A DNA stretch of 64,000 bases from Psychrilyobacter piezotolerans (lineage in GTDB: Bacteria > Fusobacteriota > Fusobacteriia > Fusobacteriales > Fusobacteriaceae). Positions 2,452 through 20,142 of the stretch are shown here, piece after piece. The translations under genes and the position numbers were made by a program. The notes under the pieces were generated by a model. It saw only the letters and a program-made list of their open reading frames with translations. It ran no database searches and was not told the origin of the DNA. Every line of letters begins with the position of its first letter. Position 1 is the stretch's first letter. The stretch lies in NCBI RefSeq assembly GCF_003391055.1, contig NZ_QUAJ01000017.1:1-64000 (forward strand), given 5' to 3'.

Positions 2452-2479
2452 ATTATACTTTTGTTTTTAGGCTTGTCAA
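2452..2479 (-). promoter_or_regulatory. Sigma70-type promoter of the Spy-like gene
   Basis: Minus strand: TTGACA at 2479-2474, a 16-base spacer, then TATAAT at 2457-2452. This is a consensus match on both boxes. Confidence 0.75.
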
Positions 2480-2711
2480 AAAAATTAAAAGAGATAATTA
2501 TTGTGGCAGTATTGTAATTATGCTAAGAAGTTATTAATTCCTCCACGGTTAACACAGAGCCAAAATTGCTTAAAGAAAATAGGTGAGCCGTTTGACAAAA
2601 TGACCGACCATACAAATATCTAAAATATAGAAAAATGAGATATTTAATTTAGAGGAAATTATTAAAGTATGTAAAATAATAATAAGTGAAATGAATGATA
2701 TTGTTGGGGAG
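2480..2711. other. Intergenic sequence upstream of the intron
   Basis: No supported gene. Bases 2643-2711 read open on the plus strand (ending SEMNDIVG) up to the intron boundary, but without a start codon. They could be the 5' exon remnant of an interrupted gene. The 3' flank reads only about ten further codons before a stop. Confidence 0.25.
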
Positions 2712-5210
2712 GTGCGACACGTTTTACAATGAAAAGTTGTAAGGGTCTTTAAGTAATAAAAATAAAGACAACAACTGTAAGTCCGATAAGAGGAATGATG
2801 GCGTAACGTCTTGAAACTCTTACCCTAATACTACGATATGCATCTATATACTTTAATATATAGGGGTATAAAGCTCGTTGAAGTCAGTTAAGAAGTAGCC
2901 CTAAGGTTTTACCTTAGGAAAGGTAGTTTCAATGGAAACTAGGTTACCGATAGACTGGGGGTCTATAAAGCTAATATGATGAGAATGTGATAAAATCACT
3001 GACGAAATTGCGAATTTACGGGTCTAAAAACCGAACGTATAGAGTAATGTACGGATTCCTAAAAAGGAAAGTATGTGAGGTTTAGTAAGAATCTGCCCTA
3101 TGAAAAACCTTTTAGTGTTATAGGCATTAATAAAGCATACAGGCTCATAGCAATCATCTAAGTTGGATATGTAAAGATAGGATTTATGGAACGTGGAAAG
3201 CAAAGAACACTTACTTTAAACAGTTAAAGCTGGAGTGGTGGATATAAGATATAATAAAATATCGAAATTCTTTTATCTTTGTGAAAGTAGGGATACAGTA
3301 CCTATGAAACCGTGATAATAAACGGTGGAGGGATAGTCCCAAGTCAAAAATTATATATAAATTAATACAATTACAATTGAATTTTTGAATGGTGGTAAAC
3401 CGAGATAATAATTTTGTCTAACCAAATTTAAGTAGGTGAGTCAAATGAATAAGAAAAGTATCTTTTCAGAAATAATCAAAAAGGAAAACTTTGAAGTAGC
3501 AATAAAAAATATAAAAGAAAATGGTAAGAAGGCAACTGGAATAGATAACATCTCTATTGATGAATTTATCGAAACCCAGAACCCATACCAAACTATCCTT
3601 GATAGACTGGAAAATTTCATACCCAATGGGGTTAGAAGAGTGGATATTCCAAAAGGTGATGGCAAAACTAGACCCTTAGGAATACCAACAATCGAAGATA
3701 AAGTAATACAAATGATGTTCAAGAATATTCTTGAGCCTATATGTGAAGAAAAATTTAACCAACATTCGTATGGCTTTAGACCTAACAGAAGAGCTGAACA
3801 TGCAATTGCATGGAATAATATTCTAATAAATGTCAGTAAACTACACTTCTGTGTAGATATTGATATTAAAGGTTTCTTTGACAATATTAACCATAATAAA
3901 CTAATAAAACAATGCATAACCATTGGGATAACAGATAAGAAAGTTCTTAGTATAATCAAAGCAATGTTAAAAGCTCCTATACATCAAAAGAATGGAGAGG
4001 TAGAAATACCCAATAAAGGAACTCCACAAGGAGGAATACTTAGTCCCCTTTTATCTAACATATGCTTAAACGAATTAGATTGGTGGATAAGCAATCAATG
4101 GCAAACTTTTAAAACTGACCACACATATAAGCCAGATAGCAATAAATACCCTGCAATAAAAAAGACAAACTTAACAGAAGTTTTCTTAATCAGGTATGCA
4201 GACGACTTTAAATTAATGTGTAGAGATAGAGGAAGTGCTGAAAGAATGTTTAGAATCACCAAACTTTTTCTAAAGAATAGACTAAAACTTGATATATCTA
4301 AAAAGAAATCTAAAATTGTAAATTTAAGAAAACAGAAATCTGAATTTCTAGGATTTGCAATAAAAACCGTCTTGAAAGGTAAGAATGGAAAACGAGTAGC
4401 TCAAACTTGGATAAAAGATAGTGCTATTAAAAGCTGTACTACAAAGCTTAAAAAAACTATCAAAGAAATTCATAAAAAACAAAGTATTAAATATATTTTG
4501 TTATATAACAGTCAAGTAAGAGGTATTCAAAATTATTACCAAATTGCTACCAATATAACTATTAGTCTATCAACGATTGGATATAATACTGATAAAGTAA
4601 TATATAACAGACTAAAAGATATAGCTAGGAGAAATTATAAGGATGAGAGATACCGCAAAAGGTTCCGTGGATACAATTATAAAACTTGGAGTATAAAAGG
4701 TATAACTCTTTTCACTATACAAGCAAGAAGGTGTAGAAATCCAATGATGTTTTCAAAGAAAACACCTAAAAATCCTACCATTAAGCAAGATAAATTTAAC
4801 CAAATTGAAAAACTATACAAAAATATACCACTTGGGGAAAATCATGCTAATGATATAGAATGGCAATTACAAAGAATAAGAGCATATCAACAAGTAAATT
4901 GTATCTGCTATGTAACGGGAGAATACGTAAAATTCAACGAATTTGCTGTACATCACATTATCCCAAGAGAATATGGAGGAAAAGACAACCTTGAGAATTT
5001 AGTTATTCTCAAAAAAGAAATCCATATTGAACTGCATAAAAAGAACCCTAGTTTTAGTAATCCTAAATTTGATAATCTTAGAAAAGAAATTCTAAATTGT
5101 AAACAAATTAAATTAATATAATTTTGATGGACCGCCGTATGAGGGGAAACTTTCACGTACGGTGCGGATGTGGGGAAAAGATGGAGATAATATCAAAGTC
5201 TTACCTATGC
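2712..5210 (+). mobile_element. Group II intron with encoded maturase
   Basis: The 5' end GTGCGAC at 2712 matches the group II consensus GUGYG. About 730 bases of non-coding, structure-rich sequence (domains I-III and the start of IV) precede the reverse-transcriptase gene. Domain V is visible at about 5131-5166, with GCCGTATGAGG, a GAAA tetraloop and TTCACGTACGG. Domain VI and the 3' boundary follow, near TTACCTATGC. The catalytic-triad position in domain V appears to read CGC rather than the more common AGC. The 3' end is approximate by a few bases. The element appears complete; it lies between the Spy-like gene and the M48 gene and does not break a recognisable gene. Confidence 0.85.
3445..5121 (+). 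CDS. ltrA: Group II intron reverse transcriptase/maturase with HNH nuclease
   Basis: A 558-residue intron-encoded protein. The order is reverse transcriptase, maturase (X) domain, then a C-terminal HNH endonuclease. The RT part has GIDNISIDEF, the PLGIPTIEDKVIQ block, GTPQGGILSPLLSN and the catalytic YADDF at about residue 250. The HNH part has HHIIPREYGGKDNLENLVIL. The family helps the intron fold, splice and retro-home into DNA. The ATG at 3445 with AGGTGAG four bases upstream is preferred over a GTG at 3436. No frameshift or stop is seen and the active-site residues are present, so it should be functional. It sits in intron domain IV. Confidence 0.95.
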   Translation: MNKKSIFSEIIKKENFEVAIKNIKENGKKATGIDNISIDEFIETQNPYQTILDRLENFIPNGVRRVDIPKGDGKTRPLGIPTIEDKVIQMMFKNILEPICEEKFNQHSYGFRPNRRAEHAIAWNNILINVSKLHFCVDIDIKGFFDNINHNKLIKQCITIGITDKKVLSIIKAMLKAPIHQKNGEVEIPNKGTPQGGILSPLLSNICLNELDWWISNQWQTFKTDHTYKPDSNKYPAIKKTNLTEVFLIRYADDFKLMCRDRGSAERMFRITKLFLKNRLKLDISKKKSKIVNLRKQKSEFLGFAIKTVLKGKNGKRVAQTWIKDSAIKSCTTKLKKTIKEIHKKQSIKYILLYNSQVRGIQNYYQIATNITISLSTIGYNTDKVIYNRLKDIARRNYKDERYRKRFRGYNYKTWSIKGITLFTIQARRCRNPMMFSKKTPKNPTIKQDKFNQIEKLYKNIPLGENHANDIEWQLQRIRAYQQVNCICYVTGEYVKFNEFAVHHIIPREYGGKDNLENLVILKKEIHIELHKKNPSFSNPKFDNLRKEILNCKQIKLI

Positions 5211-11941: not shown

Positions 11942-11989
11942 AAAAAAATCCCACCACAAAAATGAAATGCTGTATAGCATTCATTTTGT
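11942..11989 (-). terminator. Expression-platform terminator of the adenine riboswitch
   Basis: Minus strand: a hairpin of about 14 base pairs (ACAAAATGAATGCT with AGCATTTCATTTTTGT, loop ATAC) followed by GGTGGGA and seven Ts. Its 5' arm overlaps the 3' strand of aptamer helix P1, so ligand-bound aptamer and terminator exclude each other. This is the layout of an ON switch. Confidence 0.75.
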
Positions 11990-12050
11990 AATGAGAAATT
12001 AAGGTTTCCCGTAGAAACCCCCGAACCAAATTATCGGGGTTATACGATTA
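11985..12050 (-). ncRNA. Adenine-type purine riboswitch aptamer
   Basis: The minus-strand RNA shows all purine-aptamer landmarks in order: J1/2 TATAAC; P2 CCCCGA/TCGGGG with an L2 close to AATTTGG; J2/3 GTTTCTAC; P3 GGGAA/TTCTC with L3 ACCTTAAT; and J3/1 ATTAC. The base that pairs with the ligand in J3/1 is U, not C, which is the adenine signature. P1 is short and imperfect. It sits directly upstream of adenine deaminase, so the predicted ligand matches the gene. Confidence 0.9.
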
Positions 12051-12063
12051 TTTTATTTTGTAT

Positions 12064-12092
12064 ACTATATATTTTATTTTAAATCTTGTCAA
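12064..12092 (-). promoter_or_regulatory. Promoter of ade
   Basis: Minus strand: TTGACA (12092-12087), a 17-base spacer, TATAGT (12069-12064), placed just upstream of the riboswitch. Confidence 0.75.
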
Positions 12093-13686: not shown

Positions 13687-14556
13687 ATGATATTTATGAA
13701 TAATAATAGAGTAGCAAAACCAGAATGGCTAAAAATAAACTTAGGAAGTGTTAAAGGTTTTCAAAATATAGAAAGTATGTTAAAGGAGTTGAATTTAAAA
13801 ACTGTATGTAAAGAAGCTAATTGCCCTAATAGAGCAGAGTGTTACTCCAGTGGAACTGCGACCTTTTTGATAATGGGAGGGGTATGTACAAGAAAGTGTA
13901 AATTTTGTAATGTAAAAGATGGTTCACCTAAGGACTTGGATAGTGATGAACCAAAACATATAGCTGAAGCTGTTAAAAAACTTAAATTAAATTATGTAGT
14001 AGTTACATCGGTAACCCGGGATGATTTAGCTGATGGAGGTGCCAGCCACTTTGCGAAGGTTATAAGGGAGATAAGAAAAATAGATAAGGATGTCAGAATT
14101 GAAGTATTAATTCCTGATTTAAAAGGGAGGGAAGAATCTTTAAAAATAGTTTTAAAAGCAATGCCGGAAGTATTAAATCATAATATCGAAACAATTCCAA
14201 GGTTATATGATCTCATAAGACCTGAAGCTGAGTATAATAGAAGTTTAGACATTTTAAAGAGTGCAAAGACAACAGCTCCTAAAATTAAAACAAAATCCGG
14301 GATAATGTTAGGATTAGGGGAAACTCGGGAAGAAGTTATTGAAGTTTTTAAAGATTTGAGGGAACATTCCTGTGATCTCTTAACTATCGGTCAGTATTTA
14401 AGACCTTCGGCAGAACATTATCCGGTATATGAATATGTAACTCCTGAAGAGTTTGAATGGTACAAACAAAAAGCTGAAGAAATGGGTTTTGAAAATGTAG
14501 CTTCAGGGCCTCTTGTGAGAAGTTCTTATAAAGCCTGGCAGCTATATAATGATTAA
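13687..14556 (+). CDS. lipA: Lipoyl synthase
   Basis: A 289-residue radical-SAM enzyme that inserts two sulfurs into octanoyl groups on lipoyl domains (here GcvH). The auxiliary cluster motif Cys41-x4-Cys46-x5-Cys52 and the radical-SAM motif Cys67-x3-Cys71-x2-Cys74 are both intact. The C-terminal RSSYKAW, whose serine ligates the auxiliary cluster, is also present. Two starts are possible: ATG 13687 lies three bases after AGGAG, ATG 13696 twelve bases after. First gene of the operon; its product serves the GcvH encoded two genes later, together with lipB at the operon end. It overlaps an upstream reading of gcvT but not the chosen gcvT start. Confidence 0.95.
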   Translation: MIFMNNNRVAKPEWLKINLGSVKGFQNIESMLKELNLKTVCKEANCPNRAECYSSGTATFLIMGGVCTRKCKFCNVKDGSPKDLDSDEPKHIAEAVKKLKLNYVVVTSVTRDDLADGGASHFAKVIREIRKIDKDVRIEVLIPDLKGREESLKIVLKAMPEVLNHNIETIPRLYDLIRPEAEYNRSLDILKSAKTTAPKIKTKSGIMLGLGETREEVIEVFKDLREHSCDLLTIGQYLRPSAEHYPVYEYVTPEEFEWYKQKAEEMGFENVASGPLVRSSYKAWQLYND

Positions 14557-14566
14557 GGAGGGTAAA

Positions 14567-15667
14567 ATGGAATTGAAAAAAACGTCATTAAATGAAGTGC
14601 ACAAAAAACTAGGTGGTAAATTAATAGACTTTGCAGGTTGGGAACTCCCTATTCAATTTCAAGGGATTAAAGAGGAGCATCTTGCCGTTAGGGAAAGAGC
14701 CGGTCTCTTTGATGTATCTCATATGGGAGAAATTACTGTTGAAGGTTTAGAATCTTTAAAATTTGTAGATTACTTAGTTGCCAATGATGCAGGTACTCTG
14801 AATGATAATCAAGTGATGTATACATTTATGTGCAATGAAAAAGGCGGTGTTGTCGATGACCTGCTTGTCTATAAGTATTCCAATGAAAAGATATTATTGG
14901 TAGTAAATGCATCTAATATTGAAAAAGATTATAGATGGATAGAAGAAAAATCCCATGATTTTGATGTTATAACAAAAAACATATCTGAAGAAGTTTCACA
15001 AATTGCAATTCAAGGACCTAAAGCACAGGAGATCCTTCAAAAGATTACAGATATTGACTTAAATGAGATAAAATTCTTTACATTTAATTCTGAAGTTCTA
15101 TTATCTGGAGTAGAATGCCTGGTCTCAAGAACCGGATATACCGGAGAAGATGGGTTTGAAATATATCTAAGTAATAACGCAGCTGTTTCTATTGTAGAAG
15201 AACTGCTAAATGTTGGTGGAGAGGATCTTTCTCCTATAGGACTCGGAGCCAGAGATACACTTAGGTTTGAAGCAGGGCTGCCTCTCTATGGGAATGAATT
15301 AAGAGAAGATGTTACCCCCCTTGAATCGGGACTTGGTTTTTTTGTAAAGTTAGAGGCTGGAGACTTTATAGGAAAGAATATCCTTGTAGCACAAAAAAAA
15401 GAAGGATTAAAAAGAAAAACAGCAGGATTTAAATTAATTGGAAAAGGCATTGCCAGAGGTGGATACAAAGTCGTTGCCCATGGAAAAGAAATTGGAGCTG
15501 TTACAACAGGCTATCAGCTTCCTGGAAAAAAAGAAAGTATCGGCCTTGCTCTTATGGATACAGAATATGCTAAGTTAGGAACACATATTCAAATAGAAAT
15601 CAGAAAAAAACTTGTAGATGCCCAAATAATTAGTAAAAAGTTTTTAGATAAAAAATATAAAAAATAA
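14567..15667 (+). CDS. gcvT: Glycine cleavage system T protein (aminomethyltransferase)
   Basis: A 366-residue enzyme that moves the aminomethyl carbon from lipoyl-GcvH to tetrahydrofolate, releasing ammonia. Family blocks seen: GGKLIDFAGWELPIQF, FDVSHMGEI, the QIAIQGPKA region, SRTGYTGEDGFEIY and the C-terminal SIGLALMD. The ATG at 14567 is chosen because AAGGAGG lies just upstream; an in-frame ATG at 14549 overlaps the lipA stop and contains that site. Length is normal. Second gene of the lip-gcv operon. Confidence 0.95.
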   Translation: MELKKTSLNEVHKKLGGKLIDFAGWELPIQFQGIKEEHLAVRERAGLFDVSHMGEITVEGLESLKFVDYLVANDAGTLNDNQVMYTFMCNEKGGVVDDLLVYKYSNEKILLVVNASNIEKDYRWIEEKSHDFDVITKNISEEVSQIAIQGPKAQEILQKITDIDLNEIKFFTFNSEVLLSGVECLVSRTGYTGEDGFEIYLSNNAAVSIVEELLNVGGEDLSPIGLGARDTLRFEAGLPLYGNELREDVTPLESGLGFFVKLEAGDFIGKNILVAQKKEGLKRKTAGFKLIGKGIARGGYKVVAHGKEIGAVTTGYQLPGKKESIGLALMDTEYAKLGTHIQIEIRKKLVDAQIISKKFLDKKYKK

Positions 15668-15694: not shown

Positions 15695-16069
15695 ATGGAG
15701 AATTTACTTTATTCAAAGGAACATGAATGGATTAAGGTAGAAGGGAACACAGCACTTGTAGGAATTACTGATCATGCACAAAAATCATTGGGAGAAATTG
15801 TATATGTGGAACTGCCTGAAATTGATGATGAATTTGAAGCTGCAGAAGCTTTTGGTGTTATAGAGTCTGTAAAAGCAGCTTCAGATTCATATATGCCTGT
15901 ATCGGGAAAAATTATCGAAATTAACGAGGATTTAGAAGATAACCCTACTTTATTAAATGAAGATCCATATGGAACTTGGATTATAAAGATCGAACTTTCG
16001 GATAAAGGAGAATTAGATTCATTATTAGATCTATCAGCATATAATGAATTATGTGAGGAGGATAATTAA
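15695..16069 (+). CDS. gcvH: Glycine cleavage system H protein
   Basis: A 124-residue lipoyl carrier protein that shuttles the aminomethyl intermediate between P, T and L proteins. The lipoylation site is Lys60 in [11 protein letters not shown], and the domain ends with the usual NPYG-type turn (EDPYGTWI). Strong site GAGGAGG before the ATG. Its stop overlaps the gcvPA start (TAATG), giving translational coupling. It is the probable client of the lipA and lipB in the same operon. Confidence 0.97.
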
Positions 16070-17403
16070 TGTTTAGATATATCCCTGCTACGGAGGAAGA
16101 TAGAAAAGAGATGTTAGATGTAATTGGTATTAACAGCGTTGATGAACTTTTTGATGATATCCCTAAAAATTTAAAACAAAGTCAACCATTAAATATTGGT
16201 GCACCTATGTCTGAAATAGAATTGAAAAAAAGAATTGAGGAATTAGGTAATAAAAATTTATCTAATCTTATATGTTTTAGGGGAGCGGGAGCATACGATC
16301 ACTATATCCCTGCTGCAGTTGATCATTTGATCAGCCGGTCTGAATTTTATACAGCTTATACACCATATCAACCTGAAATCAGCCAGGGAACATTACAGTG
16401 TATATTTGAATATCAAACTATGATAGCTGACTTAACTGGGATGTTTGCATCCAATGCTTCTATGTATGACGGAGCCACGGCAGCAGCTGAAGCCGCTATG
16501 GTAGCGGCAACCGTTACAAAGAGACAAGAGATAGTTGTCTCAAAGAGTGTTAACCCTGAAACAAGAAAAGTTCTGAAAACATATTGCAAATTTAGAGATA
16601 TAAAGGTAGTAGAGATAGAGCTGGATGAAGGTGCGACCTGTATTAAAGATTTAAAAGATAAAATTTCAGATAAAACAGCAGGAGTAATGGTACAAAGTCC
16701 TAATTTTTTTGGAATAATTGAAGATCTGGATGAAATTAGGGAAAATATTATAGATAAAAAAACAAAGTATATTGTCTACACAGATCTTGTAGCAATGGGA
16801 ATACTTAAGACCCCTGGGGAATCTGGAGCAGATATTGTTATTGGAGATGCCCAGAGTTTTGGAACCGGACTTACATATGGCGGGCCTTATCTGGGGTTTA
16901 TGACAATAACTAAAGAACTTATTAGAAAGATGCCTGGAAGGATCGTTGGGGAAAGTGTCGATCAAGACGGGAAAAGGTGTTATGTCCTGACTCTTCAAGC
17001 AAGGGAACAGCATATCAGAAGGTATAAAGCTACTTCTAATATCTGTTCAAATCATGCATTAAATGCTTTAGCCGCCACTATTCATATGAGCCTTTTAGGA
17101 AGGGTGGGATTAGAAAAGGTCGCTGAGCAGTGTTATAAAAAAGCTAATTATACATTGAGAAAAATTGTGGAAACAGATAGATATAAACTAAAATTTAACA
17201 GGCCTTTTTTCAGAGAGTTTGTAATAGAGGGAGAAGAATCTCCTGAAATTATTAATGAAAAACTGTTAAAGGATGGTATTTTAGGCGGGTATCCTCTGGA
17301 AAAAGAATACCCGGAATTAAAAAATACATCTTTAGTCTGTATTACTGAAAAAAGAAGTAAATTAGAGATCGATAGTTTTGTTGAAAGGATGGGTGAGATA
17401 TAG
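16069..17403 (+). CDS. gcvPA: Glycine dehydrogenase (decarboxylating) subunit 1
   Basis: A 444-residue alpha subunit of the split two-gene P protein, as found in Firmicutes and Fusobacteria. It forms the decarboxylating complex with GcvPB. Recognised blocks are FRGAGAYDHYIPAAVDHL, YTPYQPEISQGTLQ and FEYQTMIADLTGM near the N-terminus. The subunit has a PLP-fold but no PLP lysine. It overlaps gcvH by one base and is followed directly by gcvPB. Confidence 0.96.
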   Translation: MFRYIPATEEDRKEMLDVIGINSVDELFDDIPKNLKQSQPLNIGAPMSEIELKKRIEELGNKNLSNLICFRGAGAYDHYIPAAVDHLISRSEFYTAYTPYQPEISQGTLQCIFEYQTMIADLTGMFASNASMYDGATAAAEAAMVAATVTKRQEIVVSKSVNPETRKVLKTYCKFRDIKVVEIELDEGATCIKDLKDKISDKTAGVMVQSPNFFGIIEDLDEIRENIIDKKTKYIVYTDLVAMGILKTPGESGADIVIGDAQSFGTGLTYGGPYLGFMTITKELIRKMPGRIVGESVDQDGKRCYVLTLQAREQHIRRYKATSNICSNHALNALAATIHMSLLGRVGLEKVAEQCYKKANYTLRKIVETDRYKLKFNRPFFREFVIEGEESPEIINEKLLKDGILGGYPLEKEYPELKNTSLVCITEKRSKLEIDSFVERMGEI

Positions 17404-18852
17404 ATGAAAGAATATAATAAACTTATATTTGAGATTTCTAAAAAGGGAAGGTGTGGTTATGCCCTTCCAGAATTAGAGGTAGATAATTCTCCTCTTGACT
17501 TGATAATACCAAAGAATCTATTAAAAACAAGGGATGTAAAATTACCAGAAGTGAGTGAAAATGGAGTAATAAGACACTATACCCGTTTATCTAATAAAAA
17601 TTTTGGATTAGATACAGGGTTCTATCCTTTGGGATCCTGCACAATGAAATACAATCCCAAAATAAATGAAGTGATTGCTAGAAACCCTAAGATGGTAAAT
17701 CTTCACCCTTACCAACCTGAAGAAAGTGTACAGGGAGCTCTTGAGATGATGCATGAGGCAGCTGAACACTTAGCCGAAATTTCTGGAATGGATCAGGTAT
17801 CTCTCCAGCCAGCAGCAGGTTCCCATGGAGAGATGGCAGGACTTATGTTGATAAAAGCTTACCATGAAAAAAATGGTGACTTTAAAAGAAAAAATATAAT
17901 CGTACCTGATTCCGCTCATGGAACAAATCCGTCTTCAGTACAAATTGTAGGTTTAAATGTGATTGAGATCAAATCAACCCCTGAGGGTGACGTGGATATA
18001 GAAGTTTTAAAGGAGCATCTAAACGATGAACTGGCAGGATTTATGTTAACCAATCCCAGTACCCTTGGAATTTTTGAAAAAAATATCGAAAAAATATCGA
18101 CACTTATCCATGAAGCCGGAGGATTGCTATATTATGATGGGGCAAATATGAATGCAATAATGGGTAAAGCAAGACCTGGAGATATGGGGTTTGACGTAAT
18201 GCATTTTAATCTTCATAAGACTTTTTCTACCCCCCATGGTGGAGGGGGGCCTGGAGCCGGACCTATCGGGTTTAAAAGTAAACTTGCCGATTTCCAGCCT
18301 GTACCTGTTATAGAAAAAATGAATAATAAATATAGACTTAATTATGACAGACCAGATAGTATAGGTAAGGTTCGTAGTTTTTATGGGAATTATGGTGTTA
18401 TTTTAAGAGCATACGCATATATATTGACAATGGGTGGAAGCGGTTTAGAAACTGCAAGTGAAACGGCAGTTCTTAATGCAAACTATATGATGGCAAGATT
18501 AAAAGAGCATTACCCTGTGGCAGTTGATAAAGTATGTAAACATGAGTTTATATTAACAGAGCCAGCCCATGAAAAGATAACTACACTTGATATTGCAAAA
18601 AGACTTTTAGACTTTGGGTATCATCCACCGACAATCTATTTTCCTCTTATTATAAAAGGGGCTATGATGATAGAGCCTACAGAAACAGAGAGTAAGGAAA
18701 CAATGGATGAATTTATAGAAACTATGATTAATATAAGAAAAGAGATGGAGGAAAATCCTGAGGCTGTTCTATCAGCTCCTGGAAACACATTGATAAAAAG
18801 AGTTGACGAAGGAAAAGCTGCAAGAGATATAGTAGTTACTCACTCTTGGTAA
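17404..18852 (+). CDS. gcvPB: Glycine dehydrogenase (decarboxylating) subunit 2
   Basis: A 482-residue beta subunit carrying the PLP cofactor, bound by the lysine in NLHKTFSTPHGGGGPG (about residue 271). It decarboxylates glycine and loads the aminomethyl group on lipoyl-GcvH. Other family blocks are FYPLGSCTMKYNPK, LQPAAGSHGEMAGL and DSAHGTNPSSV. It begins one base after the gcvPA stop. Length is typical (about 480). The next gene, 36 bases on, is the UGA-containing small ORF. Confidence 0.96.
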   Translation: MKEYNKLIFEISKKGRCGYALPELEVDNSPLDLIIPKNLLKTRDVKLPEVSENGVIRHYTRLSNKNFGLDTGFYPLGSCTMKYNPKINEVIARNPKMVNLHPYQPEESVQGALEMMHEAAEHLAEISGMDQVSLQPAAGSHGEMAGLMLIKAYHEKNGDFKRKNIIVPDSAHGTNPSSVQIVGLNVIEIKSTPEGDVDIEVLKEHLNDELAGFMLTNPSTLGIFEKNIEKISTLIHEAGGLLYYDGANMNAIMGKARPGDMGFDVMHFNLHKTFSTPHGGGGPGAGPIGFKSKLADFQPVPVIEKMNNKYRLNYDRPDSIGKVRSFYGNYGVILRAYAYILTMGGSGLETASETAVLNANYMMARLKEHYPVAVDKVCKHEFILTEPAHEKITTLDIAKRLLDFGYHPPTIYFPLIIKGAMMIEPTETESKETMDEFIETMINIRKEMEENPEAVLSAPGNTLIKRVDEGKAARDIVVTHSW

Positions 18853-18888
18853 TATATAATTCGAAGATAATAATTAGGAGGAGAATGA

Positions 18889-19197
18889 ATGGGTTTTTTA
18901 AATGGTAAATCGGTTAAAAAAGCTATAGAAGATAACATATTGGAATCTCTTCTTGAAAGGGATGCAAAAATGTGTGATACATGAGATAGAAATGCGGCAT
19001 TATCTCTGGCATTTGGAGTAAAGGCTGATCTATCTCAGGATGAGGTAGAAGAAGTTAAAAATTATGTTGAAGATTTAAAAGATGAAGAATTTTTACTTAA
19101 CGATAAGATCAAAGTCCAGTTTATAAAAGGAGATGTTAAAGAAAGAAAAAATAAAGCTCTTTTAATTTTTAGATATAAATATTTGGAGGGGTTATGA
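18889..19197 (+). CDS. Candidate selenoprotein, 102 residues, in-frame UGA at codon 32
   Basis: Read through one TGA (18982-18984), this frame gives 102 residues with MCDTU, a CxxU redox motif, followed by DRNAALSLAFGVKADL and an acidic helical tail. AGGAGGAG sits five bases before the ATG. The part after the TGA is also gene-like: it has no other stop and ends in TGATG overlapping the next start, which itself overlaps lipB. That is hard to explain if translation stopped at codon 32. Imperfect hairpins start at the TGA (18983-19014), as bacterial SECIS elements do. I do not recognise the family. The operon lacks an L protein, so a thiol/selenol redox role with lipoyl-GcvH is a speculation. 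Alternatives: nonsense-mutated pseudogene or base error. Confidence 0.55.
18983..19014 (+). promoter_or_regulatory. Possible SECIS hairpin downstream of the in-frame UGA
   Basis: Two alternative folds exist. One is GAGAT/ATCTC outer with AATG/CATT inner and a CGG loop (18983-19006). The other is AAATGC/GCATTT (18990-18995 with 19009-19014) with a 13-base loop starting GG. Position fits a bacterial SECIS; no consensus match can be proven by eye. Confidence 0.35.
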
Positions 19198-19334
19198 TGT
19201 CTAAAAACAGTCTTAGGAATGTCGATGTGGAAAGGATTGCTAGTATAGCTGCAGATGTTATGGAAGGAAAAGAAAAGAAAATTTATAGGGAAGAAGTTCA
19301 GGCCTTAGCAGCAGAATTTTCCATAAATAGATAA
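19197..19334 (+). CDS. Small conserved-looking operon protein, 45 residues
   Basis: A short ORF, MSKNSLRNVDVERIASIAADVMEG..., ending EEVQALAAEFSINR. It is mainly helical, charged, without cysteine, signal or membrane segment. GGAGGGG lies five bases before the ATG at 19197 (an ATG at 19194 is less well spaced). It overlaps the preceding stop by one base (TGATG) and the following lipB start by one base (TAATG). Such coupling on both sides argues that it is real despite its size. Function not recognised; its position suggests work with the preceding candidate selenoprotein or with lipoylation. Confidence 0.6.
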   Translation: MSKNSLRNVDVERIASIAADVMEGKEKKIYREEVQALAAEFSINR

Positions 19335-19984
19335 TGAAGGATATAAGGGTTACAGACACAGGAAGGACACCATATTTAAAATCCTATAATTTACAAATGA
19401 AATTTTTCGATAACTTAATTTCTGATAAAGAAAATTTTGGATACCTTATTATAACTGAGCCTGACCCCACTATAACTAAGGGTATTAGAGGGGAAGATAG
19501 TGAGGTTTTTATCTCAAAAGAGGAAAGAGTGGAGAAGGGAATTGAGCTTATTGATATTAGAAGGGGTGGAAAGGTAACTTTTCACGGTCCCGGTCAAATA
19601 GTTATCTATCCTATCTTGAATTTATCTCATTTCAAAAAAAGTATTAAATGGTATATTGAATCTTTAGAAGATGTTGTAATTCTAACATTGGAAGGACTGG
19701 GAGTAAAAGTTCATAAAAAAGAAGGGATTGTCGGTATTTTCACCAAAAAAGGGAAAATTTGTGCCATAGGAGTAGAAGTGAAAAAATGGAGAACACTTCA
19801 TGGTATTGCAATAAATCATGAAATTGTTCTAGACTATTTTAATAATATCAATCCTTGCGGCCTAAGGGATTTAGGAGTTACTTCAATATTAAACGAAGGT
19901 AAAAAAATTACAAGAGAAGATGTAGTTGATCTCTTCAAATTAAACTTTTCTAAGATATTTAATGTCCGACTAAAAAATTATTAA
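19334..19984 (+). CDS. lipB: Octanoyl-[ACP]:protein N-octanoyltransferase
   Basis: A 216-residue LipB-type enzyme that transfers octanoate from acyl carrier protein to the lipoyl lysine of GcvH; LipA then adds sulfur. The signature RRGGKVTFHGPGQ (about 77-88), the catalytic lysine in GKICAIGV (Lys141) and the catalytic cysteine in NPCGLRD (Cys175) are all present. These distinguish it from LplA and LipM. It overlaps the previous ORF by one base and is the last gene of the operon. Confidence 0.93.
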   Translation: MKDIRVTDTGRTPYLKSYNLQMKFFDNLISDKENFGYLIITEPDPTITKGIRGEDSEVFISKEERVEKGIELIDIRRGGKVTFHGPGQIVIYPILNLSHFKKSIKWYIESLEDVVILTLEGLGVKVHKKEGIVGIFTKKGKICAIGVEVKKWRTLHGIAINHEIVLDYFNNINPCGLRDLGVTSILNEGKKITREDVVDLFKLNFSKIFNVRLKNY

Positions 19985-20082: not shown

Positions 20083-20142
20083 AAAAAAGTGGCAACATCT
20101 CAGCTGTATGATTATTACAGCTGAGATGTTGCCACTTTTTTT
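20083..20142. terminator. Very strong bidirectional terminator
   Basis: A perfect 25-base-pair stem (AAAAAAGTGGCAACATCTCA... with its complement ending in seven Ts) and a nine-base loop. It separates the lip-gcv operon from the convergent GntR gene. Confidence 0.95.

Follow-up and report, generated by a model that had tools for sequence, protein, structure and literature searches.

The glycine cleavage cluster and its interrupted reading frame

The analyzed stretch of DNA, called the window in the following, comprises 64,000 nucleotides of a Psychrilyobacter piezotolerans contig and contains a glycine cleavage cluster on its forward strand. As judged from the open reading frames and their synteny, the cluster starts with lipA, encoding lipoyl synthase (13,687–14,556; named by sequence, with the synteny conserved where contigs reach), followed by gcvT for the aminomethyltransferase (14,549–15,667), gcvH for the lipoyl carrier protein (15,695–16,069), gcvPA (16,069–17,403), and gcvPB (17,404–18,852). 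Downstream of gcvPB lies a reading frame with an internal TGA, here termed SELP and regarded as a probable prpU (18,889–19,197). It is followed by a remnant of the serine hydroxymethyltransferase gene glyA (19,197–19,334) and by lipB, encoding octanoyltransferase (19,334–19,984), as last gene of the cluster, both likewise on the forward strand. In relatives whose contigs are long enough, the order is lipA-gcvT-gcvH-gcvPA-gcvPB-SELP-glyA-lipB, with gcvPB directly upstream of SELP in six out of six genomes.

SELP is preceded by the ribosome binding site AGGAGGAG (18,876–18,883), which can be read directly from the sequence and is placed 5 nt before the ATG at 18,889. The frame consists of 102 codons, with the in-frame TGA as codon 32 (18,982–18,984) in the context Cys-Asp-Thr-TGA, and after 70 further open codons it ends with a TGA (19,195–19,197) that overlaps the ATGs at 19,194 and 19,197. 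The codons TGT GAT ACA TGA (18,973–18,984) would encode a CxxU motif, namely Cys29-Asp-Thr-Sec32, of which Cys29, Asp30, and the TGA at codon 32 are invariant in all six homologs; the protein of 102 residues has a predicted mass of 11.8 kDa with selenocysteine. Every positional detail given for this frame in the first-pass annotation, from the ribosome binding site and the 31 codons before the TGA to the 70 codons behind it and the overlaps, proved to be correct. No in-frame ATG or GTG start is found 3′ of the TGA in the window, the only possible start being a TTG at codon 99. The downstream half therefore needs readthrough, and a separate downstream gene, considered as a candidate, was ruled out. 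Since standard annotation would end SELP at the TGA, it would miss the gene.

The open reading frame of 45 codons that overlaps the SELP stop had been noted earlier as the next open reading frame. The reported overlaps with SELP and with lipB, whose ATG at 19,334 coincides with the end of this frame, are real, but alignment with the full-length glyA of relatives revealed that it is an in-frame remnant of this gene, so that an independent gene between SELP and lipB was rejected. The start region of glyA is fused in frame to its last approximately 33 codons, while the middle is lost; at the same place, contigs of relatives (L019, L018) carry a full-length glyA encoding 410–411 amino acids. The last approximately 33 codons are about 67% identical to GlyA of Psychrilyobacter relatives, compared to 77–91% identity for SELP and lipB against the same relatives, and two intact glyA genes are present elsewhere in this genome. 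The fact that SELP stayed intact although the neighboring glyA was lost indicates that its function is independent of the adjacent GlyA.

Downstream of lipB, a 26-bp perfect inverted repeat with a T-run (20,083–20,141, forward strand) likely serves as terminator. It has a 7-nt loop and is probably a strong, possibly bidirectional one; its 18-base core has no other copy in the window. A glycine riboswitch was not found in the window. Elsewhere, the window contains a purine riboswitch aptamer (11,969–12,067, reverse strand, 59 bits) and, according to Rfam, group II intron domains at 2,770–2,969 (RF02004) and 5,130–5,210 (RF00029).

Conservation of the TGA codon and of a SECIS-like hairpin

A six-frame search of relatives identified SELP homologs in four other Psychrilyobacter species or genomes (78–90% identity) and in a single genome from a different genus of the same family (49% identity). 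Each of the resulting six sequences contains exactly one internal TGA, always at codon 32, and a sense codon occurs there in none of them. The first-pass annotation had proposed to look for homologs on both sides of the TGA and at their residue at codon 32, and with a TGA in six out of six cases no unrelated residue was encountered. As the TGA-bearing frame is kept in six genomes, a chance open reading frame or a sequencing error was ruled out. The alignment extends over 102 columns without any gap or indel in all six sequences, the invariant positions including Cys29, Asp30, Sec32, Asp33, Arg34, and the stretch KGDVKER (80–86). Within the genus, pN/pS amounts to 0.25 before the TGA and 0.38 after it, and to 0.26 for codons 51–102; amino acid variation within the genus is higher in codons 33–50, the hairpin region, with a ratio of 0.74. 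Measured against the distant genus, change at synonymous sites has come close to saturation, yet pN stays at only about 0.3 upstream as well as downstream of the TGA. These low values for pN/pS and pN on either side imply that both halves of SELP are translated and constrained. A form of SELP with cysteine at the selenocysteine position was found neither among 98 Fusobacteriota genomes nor among 389 sampled genomes, nor in a scan of contigs from close relatives, whose single pattern spanning codon 32 had Cys at that codon. Cysteine homologs of this type are customary support for a selenoprotein, not a requirement.

A hairpin beginning at the TGA, as suspected earlier, was confirmed by a consensus fold, pair counts, single-sequence folds, and a background control with other TGA triplets. 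It reaches from the UGA to position +55 (18,982–19,037, forward strand) and is composed of a lower stem (18,982–18,989/19,030–19,037), in which UGAGAUAG at the UGA pairs with CUAUCUCA 48 nt further on, and an upper stem (18,996–19,008/19,014–19,025) that carries the small loop GCAUU. Over the six SELP sequences, 91% of the cells pair, compared to 31–48% for slid versions of the alignment, and changes on both sides of a pair, i.e., compensatory ones, were counted for 5 pairs, with 1.5 expected from shuffles. Folding more stable than in shuffles was obtained for four of the six sequences, with z values between −1.7 and −3.6, but not for those of G006 and G007, which are identical over the hairpin stretch (z −0.16). 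In the window, a perfect 8-bp stem of this type is headed by only 8 of 2,223 TGA triplets, and folding as stable as that of the SELP hairpin occurs in 0.6% of 1,500 sampled TGA contexts. The hairpin that had been suggested is real, and it is conserved as a fold with compensatory changes. Bacterial SECIS elements lie just 3′ of the UGA, which is where the SELP hairpin is placed, and its position and fold suggest that it may function as a SECIS element.

The machinery for selenocysteine insertion, which the first-pass annotation had recommended checking for, is present in full in this genome. The genes selD, selA, and selB are clustered (C5:24018–28343), and selC, encoding tRNA-Sec, was identified at C6:58148–58240 with a score of 65.8 bits (gathering score 47). 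The selD gene (L023 4019–5029, G000:C5) itself carries an in-frame TGA at 4043, beyond which its frame runs on. All six genomes with SELP contain selA. Because of the conserved TGA and hairpin together with the selenocysteine machinery, SELP can be considered a selenoprotein gene with high confidence, as far as sequence allows, and the initial proposal of a candidate selenoprotein with a CxxU motif in a glycine cleavage operon is borne out.

Distribution of SELP and its likeness to PrpU

Among 98 Fusobacteriota genomes, gcvPB is found in seven, and six of these seven also contain SELP. The seventh (G097) has neither selA nor SELP, and its contig stops 186 bases past gcvPB. Expressed in terms of both genes, SELP occurs in six of six genomes with gcvPB and selA and in none of 46 genomes with selA that lack gcvPB (Fisher p = 5e-8); since five of the six SELP genomes belong to one genus, the true weight of this value is smaller. 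In at least three genomes (G005, G008, and G002, the last of them incomplete), grdA is present with neither gcvPB nor SELP. Glycine reduction itself thus does not depend on SELP, whose occurrence follows the cleavage system rather than the reductase. No further SELP homologs were detected in the scan of contigs from close relatives, in the 389 sampled genomes, in plasmids, or in viral contigs. The sole extra match among the 389 sampled genomes (G328, E 0.005) sits within an unrelated open frame of 592 amino acids that contains no TGA and was discarded. In Acetoanaerobium noterae, gcvT-H-PA-PB are present and no relative of SELP is located nearby.

SELP matched no family in the Pfam or NCBIfam profiles and no sequence in the PDB. 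Its predicted fold, with a pLDDT of 78 and a pTM of 0.62 of moderate confidence, consists of a helix, the CxxU loop, and a mixed alpha/beta part; in comparison with the PDB and viral fold libraries, it yielded no convincing relative and no thioredoxin-like match. Since the predicted fold is without a structural relative, any assignment of function depends on context.

The earlier statement that no described family resembles SELP did not hold, as Peptoclostridium acidaminophilum has PrpU, likewise a small selenoprotein with a CxxU motif, which agrees with SELP in size and operon context. PrpU was described as an 11-kDa CxxU selenoprotein whose gene shares an operon with those for glycine decarboxylase and formyltetrahydrofolate synthetase, and electron transfer to glycine reductase was proposed for it (PMC4056300). 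It was reported from Clostridium litorale as well (PMC4118067). The genome paper on P. acidaminophilum, there called Eubacterium acidaminophilum, noted the absence of dihydrolipoamide dehydrogenase (PMC4056300). For the same organism, a gcvT-gcvH-gcvPA-gcvPB-fhs arrangement without lpd was described (PMC12674515), and its glycine reductase was noted to use electrons from the gcv system directly (PMC3091704). Compared by description, SELP and PrpU share a small size (11.8 and 11 kDa), the CxxU motif, and, as far as P. acidaminophilum is concerned, the location in a glycine decarboxylase operon, and the PrpU hosts have, like this genome, glycine reductase and a thioredoxin system. They differ in that the P. 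acidaminophilum operon contains fhs, whereas SELP is next to glyA, or its remnant, and lipB; however, fhs in a prpU operon is known from one species and does not clearly define PrpU. A further difference, the lack of lipoamide dehydrogenase in P. acidaminophilum as opposed to two lpd genes here, is a feature of the host rather than of the protein. Judged by analogy, homology of SELP to PrpU is therefore likely, and by size, motif, operon, and metabolic setting SELP most likely corresponds to PrpU in Fusobacteriota.

Other known proteins were compared with SELP. GrdA (PF04723), two copies of which are encoded in this genome, is also a small CxxU selenoprotein of glycine fermentation, but it is about 150 amino acids long with selenocysteine near residue 41 in CFVU, and SELP does not match PF04723. 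PrdC of proline reductase (TIGR04481) is a CxxU electron-transfer selenoprotein from a Stickland operon; it is, however, RnfC-like with a C-terminal CxxU, and SELP shows no similarity to it. The DUF1858 selenoproteins (PF08984), a family included in a 2026 selenoproteome review, have the CxxU motif in common with SELP, which yet gives no match to PF08984 even at E values up to 10. Lipoamide dehydrogenase (L protein, TIGR01350) would act on the same proposed substrate, dihydrolipoyl-GcvH, but is a flavoenzyme of about 460 amino acids unrelated to SELP.

SELP thus probably adds a member to a selenoprotein type that is rare and has received little study, and does not represent a new kind of system. 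A 2026 list of 119 prokaryotic selenoprotein families does not mention PrpU, nor do the other selenoprotein family tables examined, and we found no earlier report of a PrpU-type protein from the phylum Fusobacteriota. SELP would extend a type so far reported, in the literature examined, from two clostridia to another phylum, and its six sequences define the invariant residues of this type.

Possible role in glycine metabolism

The first-pass annotation had tentatively connected SELP to a missing L protein gene. This absence does not apply to the genome as a whole, since two lipoamide dehydrogenases score above the curated cut-off, one of them in a lipA-E1a-E1b-E2-lpd operon that has its own, second lipB (G000:C8, L069 5617–12311). 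L protein loss was therefore rejected as an explanation of SELP. The lipoamide dehydrogenases encoded elsewhere could serve GcvH too, and with them available, this organism, unlike P. acidaminophilum, does not need another electron acceptor. A lipA-lipB pair seems to belong to each of the lipoyl-using systems, one in the gcv cluster and one with the 2-oxoacid dehydrogenase operon. From the tie of SELP to lipoyl-GcvH or lipoate synthesis that had been suggested, the connection to the cleavage operon stands, while a connection to lipoate synthesis may exist but is less favored, because another lipA-lipB pair accompanies the oxoacid dehydrogenase operon.

The genome also contains two glycine reductase loci, with GrdA carrying a TGA in the context CFV-TGA and with trxA and trxB adjoining both. 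Together with the gcv cluster, these loci make the host appear equipped for both glycine oxidation and glycine reduction, and from its genes it looks able to perform both.

As best explanation of the observations as a whole, to which we assign a probability of roughly 55%, SELP would be the fusobacterial counterpart of PrpU, with Sec32 decoded via the hairpin and with the protein acting as electron relay from dihydrolipoyl-GcvH. Conservation and the selenocysteine machinery indicate that the UGA at codon 32 is read as selenocysteine, probably through the hairpin beginning at this codon, and Cys29-x-x-Sec32 may form a reversible selenenylsulfide. Once glycine has been oxidized, the latter might be reduced by the dihydrolipoyl arm of GcvH, and SELP could pass the electrons on to thioredoxin and hence to glycine reductase (GrdA). 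Such a relay would link the oxidation of glycine to its reduction in glycine fermentation, either beside the NAD route of lipoamide dehydrogenase or replacing it. We infer the redox activity of SELP, its partners, and the direction of electron flow from the genomic context, which somewhat favors the relay function.

Alternatively, SELP could be a selenoprotein with a maintenance role and not an obligate electron carrier. It might act as thiol/selenol reductase or peroxidase in the protection or repair of the P-protein or the lipoyl group, or serve the operon as redox sensor. This would agree with lipoamide dehydrogenases that could oxidize GcvH as usual and with SELP tracking gcvPB instead of grdA, at least G005 and G008 having grdA without SELP. 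However, every selenocysteine-decoding genome with gcvPB has SELP directly after this gene, the accompanying gene set for glycine fermentation resembles the one of P. acidaminophilum, and neither a peroxidase-type motif nor a family match was recognized in SELP, which leaves a maintenance role a tentative alternative, clearly behind the relay. Unlikely, too, is that SELP has no sequence relationship to PrpU and forms a separate selenoprotein family, which would deliver electrons of dihydrolipoyl-GcvH straight to thioredoxin and glycine reductase as an NAD-independent bypass of the L protein, arisen in Fusobacteriota despite the presence of lpd.

Still more doubtful appears a function as accessory in lipoyl synthesis or transfer by LipA and LipB, e.g., as redox partner in the assembly of the lipoyl group on GcvH. 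Although the gcv cluster starts with lipA and ends with lipB, a pair distinct from the one of the 2-oxoacid dehydrogenase operon, the latter pair is without such a companion among the listed open reading frames of at least 130 amino acids, SELP has gcvPB and glyA as neighbors, and other organisms assemble the lipoyl group without a SELP-like protein. That the TGA is a true stop, due to a pseudogene, a sequencing error, or a short peptide followed by a separate gene, or that it encodes another amino acid, is very improbable, as nothing but standard annotation practice speaks for it, whereas six genomes, each assembled separately, share the codon with 49–90% identity on either flank, the pN/pS values given above indicate constraint before and after it, no ATG or GTG follows it in the window, and the selenocysteine machinery is complete.

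As a PrpU counterpart, SELP provides a direct way to test by which route the electrons released in glycine oxidation arrive at glycine reductase, and fusobacterial genomes with both SELP and lipoamide dehydrogenase would show whether it replaces or supplements the L protein. The two glycine reductase loci, L077 and L078 (G000:C48 and C53), contain near-identical trxA, trxB, and grdA genes, to which L077 adds a transporter-like open reading frame (2478–4043) beside trxB.
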